Shown here piece after piece: positions 25,505-31,672 of a stretch of 32,352 nt of DNA. Every line of letters begins with the position of its first letter. Positions within the stretch are counted from its first letter, which is position 1. Source of the DNA: Nevskia sp. (lineage in GTDB: Bacteria > Pseudomonadota > Gammaproteobacteria > Nevskiales > Nevskiaceae); assembly GCA_028291705.1 (NCBI GenBank), contig JAQGNS010000577.1, forward strand, positions 1-32,352, in the 5' to 3' direction. The translations under genes were made by a program, and so were the position numbers. The notes under the pieces are model-generated. The model made no database searches, was not told where the DNA came from, and saw only the letters and a program-made list of their open reading frames with translations.

Positions 25505-25898
25505 CACCAGATCTCCCCGAGTTCTTGGCCCAATCCGCCATGGACCTGCCCGACACCCTACGTCCTGCGCCGCTCGCGGCGCAAGCCGCGTTTCAGGGGG
25601 CTCCAGGGCGGCGGACCTCGTTCATGCCGCCTCGGCAGCCGTGTCCGGGAACGGCGGGTATCGCCTGTACCGCGGCGGGGCCTGCCAGCACCTCTTCATA
25701 GTCGTCAGCCCGGTCCGAAAGCCGCCAGATGATTGCCGCCCGGCGTCACCGTCCGGGGCAAGGGCCACCGGGCTGTCAAGGCCACCCCGCTGATATCCAG
25801 TGCGGCCACATCCGGTTATGCTCAGCGCAGGACCTCCTGATCGGCGCCCAACTGGCGGATTTCGGGAGCATTTTGACCGGGCGGCGGCGCGACAGGAC
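25505..25898. other. 394-bp divergent intergenic region with a GC-rich palindrome
   Basis: The frame of the following GGDEF gene is open from 25800 but the composition there is not clearly coding. A near-palindrome TGCGCCGC-TC-GCGGCGCA occupies 25566-25583, with perfect 8-base arms. Promoters for both flanking genes must lie here; I could not place boxes confidently. No ORF or RNA gene is convincing. Confidence 0.45.
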
Positions 25899-28001
25899 AT
25901 GCAAGGCTCACAATTCAGCGTCCGTTTCAGGCTGCTCGGCTTGTGCCTGGCGCTGCTGACGATCTTCGGCGGTTCCAGCCTGCTGCTCGGCTATCTGATC
26001 CAGCGTAACCAGACCGAGCAACAGGCGCAGCAGGAGCAGTACCGCAGATTCGAGATCATCCAGGCGACCCAGCAAGCCATCAACCTGTTGCGGCACAACG
26101 GTGGCCAGCTCAACTCGGCCATCCTGCTTAAAGATGCGCAACTGGAAAGCCAGATGCGCCAAGCGCTGGACCAATCGCGCCGGGATGTCGATGTCCAACT
26201 GGTCCGCCTCGGTTCGTTCGACCCGGCCAGCACGCGGGTGATCGAGTCGGCCTTGAATGAAATGCCGCAATACGTGCAGACCGCGATCGCCGCGATCGCC
26301 GCCGGCAAGCAGGCGGAAGCGGCGCCGGTCCTGGCCGAATTGCAGCGGCGCCTGAACCTGATCGAGGGTACGCTGGCCGCGGCCAGTCAACGCGAGCACC
26401 TGCTGGCCGAGCGGATCCAGCGCGAGGCGCGCGAGCGCGGCGTGCTGGCCATGCGCATCGCCATATCGATGATCGTCGCCGGCGGCATCGTCGGCGTGCT
26501 GCTGGTGCTGATCGTGCTGCGTTCGATCATCCGGCCGCTGCAGATCACCACCGACGCTTTGCGGCAGGTGAATGCCGGGCAGCTCGACATCGACCTGCCG
26601 CCGTTCCGCGATGACGAATTCGGCCAGATGGCACTGGCCCTGCGGCAGTTCCGCGACGGTGCGGAAAAGCTGCGGCGCCTGGCCTACCAGGACCCGCTTA
26701 CCGGGCTTGGCAATCGTGCCAGGCTGGAGGAAAGCCTGCAGGCCTCGCTGGCACTGCAGCGGCAGCCCGACGAGCGGCTGGCCTTGTTCTACTTCGACCT
26801 CGACAACTTCCGCTCGGTCAACGATCGCCTGGGACACAAGGCTGGAGACCTCTATCTGTGCGAGGCCGCGGCGCGGCTGCGCCGCCTGCTTCCGCCGGGG
26901 ACGGAATTGCTGCGTTACGGTGGCGACAAGTTCATCGCCCTGATCGAGGACGGTACGGCCCTCGACGACGCGCCCGATCTGCGGCTACGCCTGATCGCGG
27001 ATCGCGTGCTGCTCGGCATGGTCGAACCCTACCGGACCGGCAGCGAGTTGCTGCACATGTCGGTTTCGATCGGCATTGCCGCGAGCCCCGGCGACGGCAC
27101 CAGCGCCGAGCATCTGATCAACAGCGCCGAGGCGGCGGGACATGCGGCCAAGCGCAGCGGGCGCAACAATGCGCGCTTTGCCGGCGGACAGCTGACCGGC
27201 CAGTTGCGCCGGCAACTGGCCTTGGCCGGAGAAATCGGACGCGGGCTGGAGCTGGACGAGTTCGAGCTGTTTTACCAGCCGATCATCGACGTGGAGCTGC
27301 ATCGGGTGATCGGGGCCGAAGCCCTGGTGCGCTGGCGCCACCCGGAGCGCGGCCTGCTGCTGCCGGGCGAATTCATCCAGGTGGCCGAAGACGAAGGCCT
27401 GATCAAGGCGCTGGGCGAACGTTGCCTGCGCCTGGCCCACGCGCAACTGCGCAGCTGGCGCGAACAGGGCCTCGAGTTCCGGATGGCCGTGAACCTGTCG
27501 GCCCGCCAGCTGCAGGACGGCAAGCTGCTGCAGCAGCTCGACGCGCTGCGCCGGGAGGATGCCGCGGCGGCGGCCATGATCGAGCTGGAACTGACCGAGA
27601 GCGTGCTGTTCGACAGCACCGAGAACACGCGCAAGATGCTGGAGGAGATCAAGCGGCTGGGCTACCGGCTGGGCATGGACGACTTCGGCACCGGCTATTC
27701 CTCCTTCGCCTACCTGCAGCGCCTGCCGATCGACAAGATCAAGATCGACCGCCAGTTCGTCGTCAACCTGGGGATCTCGCGCCAGGCGGAGGCGATCGTC
27801 TCCGCCATGCTGGCGCTGTCGCAAAAGCTGGATCTGGCGATCGTCGCCGAAGGCGTGGAAACAACGCAGCAGATGCGCATCCTGAGCGAGCAGGGCTGCC
27901 GCCTGCAGCAGGGCTTCCTGTTTTCGCCGGCCTTGCCGGTCGCGGAATTCATGCGCTGGGCCGAGGCTTACCGACAGACGCAGCTTCCTGCCCCGGCCTG
28001 A
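25899..28001 (+). CDS. Membrane-bound GGDEF-EAL protein, probable c-di-GMP phosphodiesterase
   Basis: A 700-residue signalling protein. Helix 1 (about 11-34) and helix 2 (about 185-210) flank a helical periplasmic sensor region; a HAMP segment follows (about 211-262). The GGDEF domain (about 268-425) begins DPLTGLGNRARLEE, but its catalytic motif reads RYGGDKF (341-345), with Lys344 where a glutamate is needed, so cyclase activity is doubtful. The EAL domain (about 440-690) has Glu474 in EALVRW, NLSARQ, LTESV, MDDFGTGYSS, KIKIDRQFV, AEGVET and QQGFLF, all intact. The net role is probably c-di-GMP breakdown, with GGDEF perhaps as a regulatory GTP-binding site. The start at ATG 25899 is the best fit to helix 1; 25800 and 25818 are alternatives. 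Confidence 0.87.
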   Translation: MQGSQFSVRFRLLGLCLALLTIFGGSSLLLGYLIQRNQTEQQAQQEQYRRFEIIQATQQAINLLRHNGGQLNSAILLKDAQLESQMRQALDQSRRDVDVQLVRLGSFDPASTRVIESALNEMPQYVQTAIAAIAAGKQAEAAPVLAELQRRLNLIEGTLAAASQREHLLAERIQREARERGVLAMRIAISMIVAGGIVGVLLVLIVLRSIIRPLQITTDALRQVNAGQLDIDLPPFRDDEFGQMALALRQFRDGAEKLRRLAYQDPLTGLGNRARLEESLQASLALQRQPDERLALFYFDLDNFRSVNDRLGHKAGDLYLCEAAARLRRLLPPGTELLRYGGDKFIALIEDGTALDDAPDLRLRLIADRVLLGMVEPYRTGSELLHMSVSIGIAASPGDGTSAEHLINSAEAAGHAAKRSGRNNARFAGGQLTGQLRRQLALAGEIGRGLELDEFELFYQPIIDVELHRVIGAEALVRWRHPERGLLLPGEFIQVAEDEGLIKALGERCLRLAHAQLRSWREQGLEFRMAVNLSARQLQDGKLLQQLDALRREDAAAAAMIELELTESVLFDSTENTRKMLEEIKRLGYRLGMDDFGTGYSSFAYLQRLPIDKIKIDRQFVVNLGISRQAEAIVSAMLALSQKLDLAIVAEGVETTQQMRILSEQGCRLQQGFLFSPALPVAEFMRWAEAYRQTQLPAPA

Positions 28002-28021: not shown

Positions 28022-28909
28022 TTAGCTCCCGGCTTCGGCAAGTCGTTTGCGGGCTGCCTGCACCACCAGCCGTTCAGGGTCCTTGCAGGCGGATTCCCAG
28101 ATTTGCCCGGCCTGCGCCGGATCGAGTTGCGCCAGCGCCTGGTAAGCGGCCAGCCGCGTGCGCCGGCACGGATGCTGGCGTGACAGATCGTCGAGCAGTT
28201 GCCGGGTGTCGCCGTTGCCGACCTGGGCCGCCATTTTCAGCACCGAGATGCGGCGCGAGCTGTCCAGTTCGGCGGGGTAGTCGAGCAGGGTCCGGCTTTC
28301 CAGGTCGAAGAAAAACTGGTCGCGCACGCGTACTTCGGGCGTGGATACCATGAAATTGAGCGTGACGCTGAGCTGTTCCGGCGGGTACTGGATATGCACG
28401 TCCTTGCCGGCCCGGTACATCATCACCATGCCGGTGGTGAAGTGGATGCGCTCGAGAAAGCGGAAGTCGATCGTTTCGCCGGGACGGCCTTCGAGCTGGT
28501 CGTAATCGTACTCGTAGATCTCGGTGCTGTACCCGGGGCCGTGGTAGCCCACCGTCATGAAATTGTAGTTGTGGTCGTGGGCCAGGTTGTAGGAGAACTG
28601 GTCCTGGTAGACCCGGCCGCTGGCGATATCGGCGTCGGAGGGCCAGACATTGGCGCGGATATAGAAATCCCTGCCTTCGCCGAGAAAGATCACCTGTGCC
28701 GAGGCCACACTCTGGCTTCTGAACTGGTGTTTGACCTGGCGGTTGAGCTGGCGCACCACCAGTTCACTATCGTTGGCCAGCCCCCGGAACATCGGCGCGG
28801 CTGCGGCGACGCTGTCCATGTCATGCAGGTCCACATTGGCGCGGACATGATCGATGAACTGCTCAAGGCTGACGGTATCGGCGTTGTCGCAGGCAATGGT
28901 GAGGGCCAC
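28022..28909 (-). CDS. Cupin-like protein with HEAT-like C-terminus (candidate active paralogue)
   Basis: A 295-residue soluble protein. Residues about 70-200 look like a cupin barrel: NLAHDHNYNFMTVGY (108-122) gives an HxH pair (H111, H113), then YEYD, and a second segment GKDVHIQYPPEQL (168-180) gives H172 and, later, SVTLNFMV. H111, H113 and H172 would form a metal site. Residues about 218-295 are helical repeats (TRLAAYQALAQLDP, then VVQAARKRLAEAG) of HEAT type, usually for protein binding. The GTG start at 28909 lies five bases after the stop of the paralogous gene upstream, so the two are one operon. I do not know an established function; metal-dependent oxygenase or other modification chemistry is inference. 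Confidence 0.75.
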   Translation of the reverse strand: MALTIACDNADTVSLEQFIDHVRANVDLHDMDSVAAAAPMFRGLANDSELVVRQLNRQVKHQFRSQSVASAQVIFLGEGRDFYIRANVWPSDADIASGRVYQDQFSYNLAHDHNYNFMTVGYHGPGYSTEIYEYDYDQLEGRPGETIDFRFLERIHFTTGMVMMYRAGKDVHIQYPPEQLSVTLNFMVSTPEVRVRDQFFFDLESRTLLDYPAELDSSRRISVLKMAAQVGNGDTRQLLDDLSRQHPCRRTRLAAYQALAQLDPAQAGQIWESACKDPERLVVQAARKRLAEAGS

Positions 28910-28914
28910 GGCTT

Positions 28915-29787
28915 CTATTCCGGAGTTTGTTGCCGGACCTGATTCAGGGTCCTGGCCGCGGCCTGGCGCACATGCGGATGAACGTCGTCGAGCGCGCTTT
29001 CGAGCTTGTCGAGTGCCGCGCCGCGGCTGAGGCGGCCGAGGTTCTGGATCGCCGCCCAGCGCACGGCATGGTGCGGGTGGGTGCTCAGCAGTTCGAGCGG
29101 TTCCAGGGAAGTTTGCTGCGCCAGCCGGCCCAGGATATAGGCGGCGACGCGCAGCTGCGTCCAGTTCAACTCGCTATCGTTGGCTTGCCGGGCCTGCAAC
29201 TGGTCTTTGTCGAACAGCCATTCCAGGTTCTGGAAGGCGGCCGTGGTGAATTTCACCACGGCGACAGGGCGTTCGATCTTGAAGTCGTAGGTGTAACGGT
29301 CCGCTTGCAGGCGCAGGACTTCGCCGGGCTCGCAAGTTCCGGAGCCGGCCGATTCAAGCCTGAGCGCTGCATCGAACACATCGTTGCGGTAGTCCGCTGG
29401 CAGCCGGTAGAGGTCGTAACGCAGGCTTTCCGTTCCGATCGGCACATACATGCCGAAAAACGGCGTGGTATGGATGTATTCGCGAGCCTGATCGAACAGC
29501 CCGATCGAAAGCGCGAAGCCGCGGCCGCGATGCAGTACCAGTTGCTTGGGACGCCAGTCCCCCATGTAGCTGGGGTTGGCCGTCAGCTTTTCGAGTTCGC
29601 GATTGAGCAATTCGCCAAGACAGCCGCTGTCGATGAACCGGCGGAATTCCGCTTCGAGATCCCAGAACGATTCCAGCGCATCCCGGCGGAAACCCCGGTC
29701 AACCTGCTCGACGAAGCGGCTCAGTTGCGCGTCTGCGCAAGCCGCTTCCGCCTGGAGGGGCATGGAAACGGATGGAGGGGGCTGCAT
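28915..29787 (-). CDS. Degenerate paralogue of the cupin-like HEAT protein
   Basis: A 290-residue protein sharing the layout of the gene downstream: LNR near 61-63, then QLVLHRGRGFALSIGL (82-97), IHTTPFFGMYVPIG (105-118) where the neighbour has HDHNYNFMTVGY, and RYDLYRL where it has EIYEYD. Only one histidine (H106) of the HxH pair remains and the third position is not evident, so the metal site is probably lost. The C-terminus (about 206-290) has clear HEAT-like repeats (HHAVRWAAIQNLGRL, HPHVRQAAARTLNQV). Starts at 29832 (GTG), 29787 and 29763 are possible; none has a strong ribosome-binding site and I chose the ATG at 29787. Likely a non-catalytic binding partner. Confidence 0.7.
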   Translation of the reverse strand: MQPPPSVSMPLQAEAACADAQLSRFVEQVDRGFRRDALESFWDLEAEFRRFIDSGCLGELLNRELEKLTANPSYMGDWRPKQLVLHRGRGFALSIGLFDQAREYIHTTPFFGMYVPIGTESLRYDLYRLPADYRNDVFDAALRLESAGSGTCEPGEVLRLQADRYTYDFKIERPVAVVKFTTAAFQNLEWLFDKDQLQARQANDSELNWTQLRVAAYILGRLAQQTSLEPLELLSTHPHHAVRWAAIQNLGRLSRGAALDKLESALDDVHPHVRQAAARTLNQVRQQTPE

Positions 29788-29930
29788 GGATGTTCCGCTC
29801 GATCCGGTGGCGCGACTACGCTGACCGCGCACACCTGCGGAACTTCGCGTGGAATGCGCCGGTGCGGATATCGATAAGGCGAGGCGGGTGGAGAGCCGTC
29901 TTCAGGCACTCCGTCCGGATGCGAACCCGA

Positions 29931-30080
29931 TCAGCCGTTTTCGGGGAGGCGGTAATAAACCAGGAAGAAAGCGGCCTGATTTTCCTCGGAAGCGGAAGGT
30001 TCGGTCGAACCGACACTGGCTACGTCATATTCCAGATCGCAGATTTCGAAGGCGTCGGCAGGCTGATTTTGGCGGGTCAT
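29931..30080 (-). CDS. 49-residue acidic peptide, candidate precursor or small partner
   Basis: ATG 30080 to TGA 29931 encodes 49 residues. The N-terminal half includes DAFEICDLEYDVASVG (residues 9-24), acidic with one Cys; the middle is Ser/Glu-rich (STEPSASEEN); the end is hydrophobic and aromatic (AAFFLVYYRLPENG). Twenty-nine of 48 sense codons after the start end in G or C by my count, somewhat less than in the neighbours. No strong ribosome-binding site is visible. It is on the same strand as, and about 143 bp upstream of, the two cupin-HEAT genes. The bipartite layout recalls RiPP precursors (leader then core), but I recognise no family and it could be a chance ORF. Confidence 0.42.
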   Translation of the reverse strand: MTRQNQPADAFEICDLEYDVASVGSTEPSASEENQAAFFLVYYRLPENG

Positions 30081-30392: not shown

Positions 30393-30614
30393 CTACTTCG
30401 TTCCGACCGGCGAATAGACCACGGGCGTGAAGCCGGTTACCGGGATGCTCGCTTCGGCATCCACCAGTTCGATGCCGTGGCTGCTCATGGCATCCGCCAG
30501 GGCCGCACTGGTCTTGTGTGGGCTCGACGGGATGGCTGCGTGGTGATGGGGTGGGGCGGCTGTCACCAGCAGCGCCATTGCGGTACAGCCGAGTAATGCC
30601 AGGGCGATTTTCAT
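30393..30614 (-). CDS. Small secreted protein, unknown function
   Basis: A 73-residue protein with a signal peptide (MKIALALLGCTAMALLVTA, cleavage likely after VTA or TAA). The mature part of about 54 residues starts with a His-rich stretch (PPHHHAAIPSSPH) and continues helical then beta. GGAGA (30619-30623 on the minus strand) lies four bases before the ATG, a good ribosome-binding site. The His-rich start might bind metal; this is speculation. I do not recognise the family. It is transcribed toward the peptide/cupin-HEAT unit but is separated from it by 312 bp. Confidence 0.65.
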   Translation of the reverse strand: MKIALALLGCTAMALLVTAAPPHHHAAIPSSPHKTSAALADAMSSHGIELVDAEASIPVTGFTPVVYSPVGTK

Positions 30615-30745: not shown

Positions 30746-31672
30746 CTACTTGCGCCGTGCGGCGGCCTTGCGTCGGAGCTTCGTCGGCGGCGGACCAAAG
30801 CCGGCGCCCGCGGTGAACAGCCAGTCGGCGAGGATCTGCACAGCCGGCAAGCGCGCCTTGGCTGCCGTGGTGACAAAGTAGTAGGCGCGGTGATGGTGCA
30901 CCGCCCAATCCGCCGCGCAGACCACGCGGCCCGCCTGCACGTCTCCCGCCGCCAGCGACCAGCGGGCCATGGCCACGCCGTGGCCGCGCTCGGCGGCGAT
31001 GATCGCGGAGGCGGAGTCGTCCAGCTCGGAGCGTACCGGCACCTCGTGCCGCCGGCCGAAGACGGGCTTGACCCAGTCGTTCCAGGGTTCGGTATTGGCG
31101 TGCAGCAGGGGGTAGCGGGACAGGTCGGCAAAGGCGGTGATCGGTCCCAGGCGGCGCAGCAATTCGGGATTGCAGACCGGCACCAGCCAGTCGTCCAGCA
31201 GGCGCCGCGACTGCAGGCCGGGCCAGCGGCCGGCGCCGAAGCGGATCGCGGCGTGGAAATCGCTATCGCCGAGGTCAACTACCTGGGTGCTGGCGCTGAG
31301 TCGCAAGTCGATGTCGGGATGCGCGGCCTGGAATTCCGGCAGGCGCGGCAACAGCCAGCGCTGCAGGAAGGAAGCGAGCAGGCTGACGTTGATCTGCCGG
31401 GTATCCTGCGACTGCAAGGCTTCTTCCATTGCCCGGCGCAGTTCGTCGAAGCCGCGCCTCACGCGCGGCAACAGCCGCGCACCTTCAGCGGTGAGCCGGA
31501 TCGATGCGCCCAGCCGCTCGAACAGGGGATAGCCGAGGCTGCTTTCCAGCGCGCGGATCTGCTGGCTGATGGCGGCCGGGCTGACGTACAAGGCCGCCGC
31601 CGCGGTGGTGAAGCTCATGTGCGAGGCTGCCGCTTCAAAGGCGCGCAAGGCGGTAAGAGGGAGGCGGTTCAC
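30746..31672 (-). CDS. LysR family transcriptional regulator (GcvA-like)
   Basis: A 308-residue LysR regulator. The N-terminal winged helix-turn-helix starts LPLTALRAFEAAASHMSFTTAA (first 20 residues after MNR) and continues AISQQIRALESSLGYPLFERL, a typical GcvA-type pattern. The effector-binding domain (about 90-295) includes LPRLPEFQAAHPDIDLRL and DFHAAIRFGAGRWPGL. The C-terminus is a basic tail (KLRRKAAARRK). The start is a GTG at 31672. It is divergent from a GST gene 197 bp away, the usual arrangement for a regulator and its target, and an inverted repeat lies directly upstream. Confidence 0.88.
   Translation of the reverse strand: MNRLPLTALRAFEAAASHMSFTTAAAALYVSPAAISQQIRALESSLGYPLFERLGASIRLTAEGARLLPRVRRGFDELRRAMEEALQSQDTRQINVSLLASFLQRWLLPRLPEFQAAHPDIDLRLSASTQVVDLGDSDFHAAIRFGAGRWPGLQSRRLLDDWLVPVCNPELLRRLGPITAFADLSRYPLLHANTEPWNDWVKPVFGRRHEVPVRSELDDSASAIIAAERGHGVAMARWSLAAGDVQAGRVVCAADWAVHHHRAYYFVTTAAKARLPAVQILADWLFTAGAGFGPPPTKLRRKAAARRK

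Follow-up and report, generated by a model that had tools for sequence, protein, structure and literature searches.

What does an open reading frame of 49 residues do beside two adjacent genes for related cupin-like proteins? This question is raised by a 32,352-nucleotide stretch of DNA from Nevskia sp. (hereafter the window), in which three minus-strand genes follow each other in the order pep, pse and cat. A preliminary description of the sequence had viewed them as encoding a peptide substrate, a pseudoenzyme partner and a catalytic subunit, respectively, and had suggested a RiPP-like pathway. Here, we followed this proposal through the relatedness of the two proteins, the distribution of their genes and the nature of the short peptides encoded alongside.

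Locus layout and relatedness of Cat and Pse

The genes of the locus are summarized in Table 1. The coordinates agree with the preliminary description in that cat and pse are neighbors only 5 bases apart and that the short reading frame is located just upstream on the same strand. The latter lies 98 bases upstream of the longest pse reading frame, whose start is uncertain, as an in-frame ATG is present at 29787 and several homologs begin further in. Further upstream, the 73-residue ORF has a signal-peptide-like start and yielded no confident family in Pfam or NCBIfam scans. The genome of the window also harbors the entire unit a second time in diverged form (G000:C203:79570-81583; loci L002 and L029), with a cat that is 59% identical and with its own pep, pse and GGDEF-EAL neighbor.

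Table 1 Genes of the unit and of its surroundings in the window
Feature	Position	Strand	Description
pep	29931-30080	minus	49-aa ORF, ATG start; candidate precursor peptide (ORF list, homologs, profile, alignment, purifying selection)
pse	28915-29832	minus	305 aa from GTG; degenerate CDO-like cupin and HEAT paralog of cat
cat	28022-28909	minus	295 aa, GTG start; cupin-like, H111/H113/H172 and C-terminal HEAT-like part
HAMP-GGDEF-EAL gene	25800-28001	plus	Pfam HAMP, GGDEF and EAL; convergent neighbor of cat
LysR regulator	30746-31672	minus	upstream of pep
73-aa ORF	30393-30614	minus	upstream of pep

The proposal of an enzyme and a pseudoenzyme had been built on the relatedness of the two proteins and on their shared layout, and both were confirmed by comparison of the family profiles with hhalign, which matched Cat and Pse over their whole length (probability 96.6%, E 6.6e-10). 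After removal of the HEAT part, residues 13-85 of Cat still matched Pse with an E-value of 4.2e-7. The HEAT-like C-terminus that had been ascribed to both proteins is clear in Pse but weak in Cat, where Pfam HEAT_2 scores below the cut-off (E 8.7e-5); the Cat proteins of Vibrio and of locus L145 lack this part. The ligand-bearing barrels of the two proteins could not be aligned confidently. In the whole-profile alignment, H113 of Cat is the only one of its ligands to face a histidine, H106 of Pse, which is itself not conserved in the wider Pse alignment.

Cat contains H111, H113 and H172, and the corresponding HxH...H pattern is kept in 83 of 84 distinct complete homologs. For this census, 97 matches were reduced to 84 by leaving out incomplete copies and counting equal cores once; its f217 part (see below) comprises only genomes fetched as loci, 30 of them the best-scoring of a larger search. 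A 19-row alignment of Pse revealed no conserved set of histidine ligands, so that the contrast drawn earlier between a protein that keeps these residues and one that has lost most of them holds at the level of the families. The sole Cat of the 84 with a changed ligand (H113N; L007, G012:C188) lies next to a peptide with a diverged C-terminus. Moreover, an arginine (Arg85) is kept in 82 of the 84 homologs and precedes the first histidine by 26 residues in 66 of them. In cysteine dioxygenase (CDO), R60 and H86 are spaced by the same 26 residues, and the arginine at this position binds the carboxylate of the substrate.

Structure prediction, which had been recommended for both proteins, yielded an AF2 model of Pse with a pLDDT of 78.2 and a pTM of 0.77. 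Its top Foldseek matches were thiol dioxygenases (4tlf, E 1.5e-6, TM of about 0.4 by query and 0.5 by target), and VIA gave a Z of 12.2 and an rmsd of 3.0 over 159 residues against 4qma. Judging from this model, the predicted fold of Pse is best matched by cupins of the cysteine/thiol-dioxygenase type, at moderate TM-scores. Together with the HxH...H pattern of Cat, this match indirectly suggests that the three histidines cluster in the fold, as the preliminary description requires. An AF2 model of Cat, built from a three-sequence alignment, was set aside due to its pLDDT of 42. Scanning Cat and Pse against Pfam returned no CDO, PCO or other cupin family, and their cores matched no Pfam or NCBIfam model beyond noise. 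Sequence searches against solved structures with four queries, one of them a short Cat, gave HEAT/alphaRep proteins or noise.

Distribution of the pair and conservation of pep in Nevskiaceae

We identified cat in 25 of 58 Nevskiaceae genomes, at 26 loci, and pse adjoins it at every one of these; the other 27 genomes of the order were devoid of cat. Beyond Nevskiaceae, four other families and two plasmids contain related pairs, which almost always have a short ORF next to them. Distant Cat proteins were detected by profile or protein search in 6 of 140 genomes of f46, a family that is AT-rich and probably Legionellaceae. The family f217, presumably Sphingomonadaceae as judged from its gene order, contributed 12 genomes of a 398-genome phylum sample, and a larger search found cat in 74 of 199 genomes and in 41 of 96 genera. 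The gene is also present in 6 of 119 genomes of f18, in 4 of 118 genomes of f144 and, as one copy each, on a plasmid of Alteromonas stellipolaris and on one of Vibrio sp. ED002. In a 369-genome sample of the class, cat was confined to the genome of the window and one f46 genome, and the unit is thus patchy. Viral contigs searched with close-match patterns of the Nevskiaceae profile yielded no relatives, nor did phage records searched with the Alteromonas Cat. Duplicates were dropped from the counts (L005, L013 and L029 equal L003, L004 and L002); likewise, L146, L151 and L168 repeat genes of L139, L141 and L142, with seed peptides located in L146 and L168. One record titled Verrucomicrobia bacterium (L003; CAJCJI010000341.1) carries a unit of the Nevskiaceae type, and its title is probably wrong.

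The Nevskiaceae peptides share a consensus of roughly LEICDLEYDVAGVGATE..EENQAAFxLVxYRLPE. Homologs of pep were found upstream of pse at 15 of the 26 loci, and a profile added three loci (in G052, G053 and G055) at which the GGDEF-EAL gene stands between pep and the pair. In total, pep is present at 18 of 26 loci and in 17 of 25 pair-bearing genomes, compared to none of the 33 Nevskiaceae genomes without the pair. The preliminary description had staked its proposal on the conservation of the peptide next to the pair in related genomes, which most of the loci bear out. The aligned sequences further show that pep is under purifying selection: pN is lower than pS in all 78 pairs of 13 peptides (out of 18), with a pN/pS of 0.45 at synonymous sites near saturation, and the same applies to all 15 pairs of the six f46 peptides (pN/pS 0.18). 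Together with the co-occurrence, this selection indicates that the association of pep with the pair is more than chance. The peptide of the window contains a cysteine (Cys14), which is kept in 11 of 15 aligned Nevskiaceae peptides, and displays no obvious site for cleavage between a leader and a core.

At the other eight loci, pep was not detected near the pair. A motif search for a diverged peptide in these eight pair-only genomes gave nothing, and the small ORFs near their pair genes were unconvincing as pep. With E-values of up to 10 allowed, the pep profile produced only weak matches; the best match genome-wide (E 0.011) resides inside a 200-residue frame and did not convince us either. 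These loci are the strongest result against a RiPP-type system. They would also fit a small ORF that has no function with the pair and is associated with it by linkage only, as would the lack of significant similarity between the peptides of Nevskiaceae and f46 (hhalign probability 2%, P 0.024). Mere linkage nevertheless appears highly improbable to us, given that pep does not occur in pairless genomes, is under purifying selection, is still located close to the pair where it lies beyond the EAL gene (G052, G053 and G055), and has a counterpart of fixed place and strand in f217 (see below).

Peptides and neighboring genes in other families

In f46, an ORF of 50 residues (49 in three copies) is encoded divergently from pse at all six loci. 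For f217, we built a profile from five seeds and ran it on 5572 six-frame segments of 15 loci (13 from f217 and one each from f18 and f144). It matched ten of the 13 f217 loci, i.e., the five seeds and five others, with E-values from 4.7e-20 to 0.078, two of which were weak (0.0067 and 0.078). Each of these peptide genes shares the strand of cat and lies upstream of it; for L138, L145 and three additional f217 loci, the peptides were chosen by eye. When applied to the 30 best-scoring f217 loci of the 74-genome search, two of which hold seeds and one of which repeats a scanned locus, the profile matched 29 at the same place and on the same strand, and the sole miss (L172) is cut by the end of the record. 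As a control, 20 column-shuffled versions of the profile each matched none of the 30 loci. The f217 consensus reads roughly MNLPKIDLSSLPDLDTxTGLFGSLSDxATAxxDDRIVVIMVYVYExxPPExLL, and conservation of the peptide in these probable sphingomonads is strong right up to the C-terminus.

Cysteine is absent from all 29 sphingomonad-type peptides, as judged for L154, L156 and L159 from their uncut sequences. We therefore rejected oxidation of a peptide thiol as the general reaction of the unit. It could still take place where a cysteine is present, i.e., in 6 of 18 representative peptides including that of the window, and a small thiol may likewise be a substrate.

Inspection of f18 and f144 by eye provided candidate peptides at seven of eight further loci, and none was found at L190. 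The peptides of L193 and L194 start with a double-glycine-like leader, and that of L131 contains a similar motif. At L189 (G1168:C2), two pse-cat pairs flank a single peptide ORF; the core of this peptide is repeated twice in near-identical form (STLFIFAAR and STAFIFAAQR). The peptides of L187, L188 and L192 have tails rich in valine and isoleucine, that of L187 being encoded downstream of cat, while the candidate at L191 is weak. The Alteromonas plasmid encodes two candidates and the Vibrio plasmid one, again downstream of cat. The peptides of f18, f144, the plasmids and three f217 loci are thus by-eye picks.

The acidic N-terminal half and hydrophobic end noted for the peptide of the window proved to be an unusual combination. 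For 14 of the 18 representative peptides, it was equaled by less than 1% of 3638 background ORFs, and for the other four (L191, L193, one Alteromonas candidate and Vibrio) by 1.2-5.1%, although this test is partly circular because several peptides were picked by eye, and its background still includes the peptides themselves. Searches of the peptides against Pfam and NCBIfam gave noise only. On the basis of their sequences, the peptides of different families appear alike in place and make-up rather than in demonstrable homology.

Could the peptide instead serve as a small subunit, structural or regulatory, of a heteromeric dioxygenase whose substrate is a small molecule? Conservation up to the C-terminus, as in the sphingomonads, resembles a subunit more than a variable product, and the arginine of Cat at the substrate-binding spacing of CDO (66 of 84) would suit a small substrate; yet Cat can be aligned across families whose peptides differ, the pair occurs without a detectable peptide at eight loci, and the repeated core of L189, the leaders of L193 and L194 and the exporters at L111 and L188 (see below) are not what a subunit would call for. 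We consider this explanation unlikely.

In Nevskiaceae, 25 of the 26 loci have a GGDEF-EAL gene next to cat and convergent with it, and the remaining locus is cut by the contig end. Such conservation is unusual for a convergent pair, all the more as the flanks differ between lineages. In the three genomes G052, G053 and G055, the gene is divergent from pep. The EAL motif is retained in 23 of 25 of these neighbors and GGDxF in 12 of 25. No such neighbor was seen in the gene lists of f217 and f46. The GGDEF-EAL protein is a candidate partner of the unit, seen as a conserved neighbor in Nevskiaceae only. At L131, its place is taken by a CHASE3 histidine kinase-receiver hybrid (L131:9456-11399), which is convergent with cat. 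All six f46 loci (L100 and L106-L110) have a Cupin_8/JmjC gene adjacent to pep (Pfam match from the L100 copy), and its product could be a second peptide-modifying enzyme.

The preliminary description had found no transporter nearby. This stands for the scanned neighbors in the window, among which there was neither an exporter nor a protease, but not for all relatives, as exporters flank the trio on the Alteromonas plasmid (L111) and in G1167 of f18 (L188). In both clusters, one flank holds genes for HlyD, an ABC ATPase and a MacB-type permease, and the opposite flank holds a gene for an ABC ATPase; Alteromonas also has an ABC-2 permease, and the matching ORF of G1167 is without Pfam match. 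Pfam scans of the genes examined revealed no protease and no RRE.

The signaling genes next to the unit, i.e., the GGDEF-EAL gene conserved in Nevskiaceae and the CHASE3 kinase beside L131, together with the hydrophobic tails, are features one would also expect if the peptide were an unmodified signal, toxin or pheromone that the pair senses, sequesters or neutralizes in the manner of an immunity protein or antitoxin. We regard this as improbable, as the histidine triad in 83 of 84 Cat proteins favors catalysis, and a PADLOC scan of four proteins matched Pse alone and only with HEAT-repeat models. On the same PADLOC result, a reading as a defense system was dropped.

A RiPP-type reading and its relation to known systems

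Taken together, the most economical reading is a RiPP-type modification system, in which Cat would be the metal enzyme, Pse its pseudo-cupin partner and the C-terminal segment of the peptide the site of modification; we assign it a probability of roughly two in three. It draws on what was computed here: the trio recurs, Cat and Pse are related, the model of Pse matches a CDO-like fold, the histidine triad of Cat is conserved, and the peptides stand out by their co-occurrence with the pair, their selection and their composition. The enzyme, pseudoenzyme and peptide of the preliminary description thus recur as a unit in several families, but not without exception: a short precursor-like gene is linked to the enzyme genes apart from 8 of 26 Nevskiaceae loci and L190, and several of the peptides are by-eye picks.

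The ribosomal precursor would be recognized through its acidic N-terminal segment and carry a short, hydrophobic, often beta-branched or aromatic core at its C-terminus. Cat and Pse would form a complex, in which Cat may bind a metal, probably Fe(II), through H111, H113 and H172 in a cysteine-dioxygenase-like cupin, while Pse may bind or position the peptide. The reaction on the core probably uses O2 to oxidize aliphatic or aromatic side chains, a guess made from the fold and the peptide cores. Following a presumed cleavage, the product may be sensed in Nevskiaceae by the neighboring GGDEF-EAL protein, and it would probably be exported in the Alteromonas and G1167 clusters.

A bolder version of this proposal, to which we give somewhat less than even odds, is an undescribed class of ribosomal peptide modification in several families of Pseudomonadota. 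Its only recurring machinery would be a three-His CDO-like cupin joined to a pseudo-CDO as a heterodimer, which would use O2 to act on aliphatic or aromatic residues that are not activated and lie in a hydrophobic core. The strongly conserved product of the sphingomonads would then act as an endogenous cofactor or signal and not as a variable antibiotic. Given that cat occurs in 74 of 199 f217 genomes and that 29 of the 30 loci with the best scores encode the same kind of peptide, common environmental bacteria may possess an unknown yet testable pathway, for which the precursor sequences provide direct substrates for assays.

Among known systems, thiol dioxygenases (CDO, 3-mercaptopropionate dioxygenase, PCO and ADO) are the closest in fold, as judged from the Pse model, and the HDH...H triad and conserved upstream arginine of Cat resemble those of CDO. 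The unit differs from these enzymes by its HEAT part, the degenerate paralog next door and the adjacent peptide gene. Moreover, no thiol dioxygenase appeared among the Pfam or PDB sequence matches of its proteins, and the 29 sphingomonad-type peptides offer no cysteine to oxidize. To our knowledge, the three-His thiol dioxygenase fold has not been reported to modify ribosomal peptide cores. The phycobilin lyases CpcE and CpcF are likewise two related HEAT subunits encoded together, and the HEAT part of Pse is weakly similar to the NCBIfam models of CpcE, CpcF and NblB; this similarity is confined to the HEAT repeats and far below the family cut-offs. Among the papers listed by searches of the openly licensed PMC literature, no title or abstract opening described a precursor peptide together with a cupin-HEAT or CDO-like pair. 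Cat also differs from the JmjC or 2-oxoglutarate cupin hydroxylases, as it has HxH...H instead of HxD/E...H, and the Cat proteins scanned gave no Cupin_8/JmjC match in Pfam.

Cupin-fold proteins that act on, or are encoded beside, a ribosomal precursor have precedents: the cupin-type hydroxylase PbsQ of the biphenomycin-like pbs RiPP cluster, which is described as related to a JmjC-domain protein and acts beside MNIO, arginase and B12-radical-SAM enzymes (PMC12257519), and the cupin-4 genes that occur with NHLP precursors (PMC9426513). Here, unlike for PbsQ, no enzymes other than an HxH...H cupin and its degenerate paralog were found at the loci of all families, and the recurrence of the trio in distantly related bacteria suggests an undescribed way of chemically modifying small peptides.
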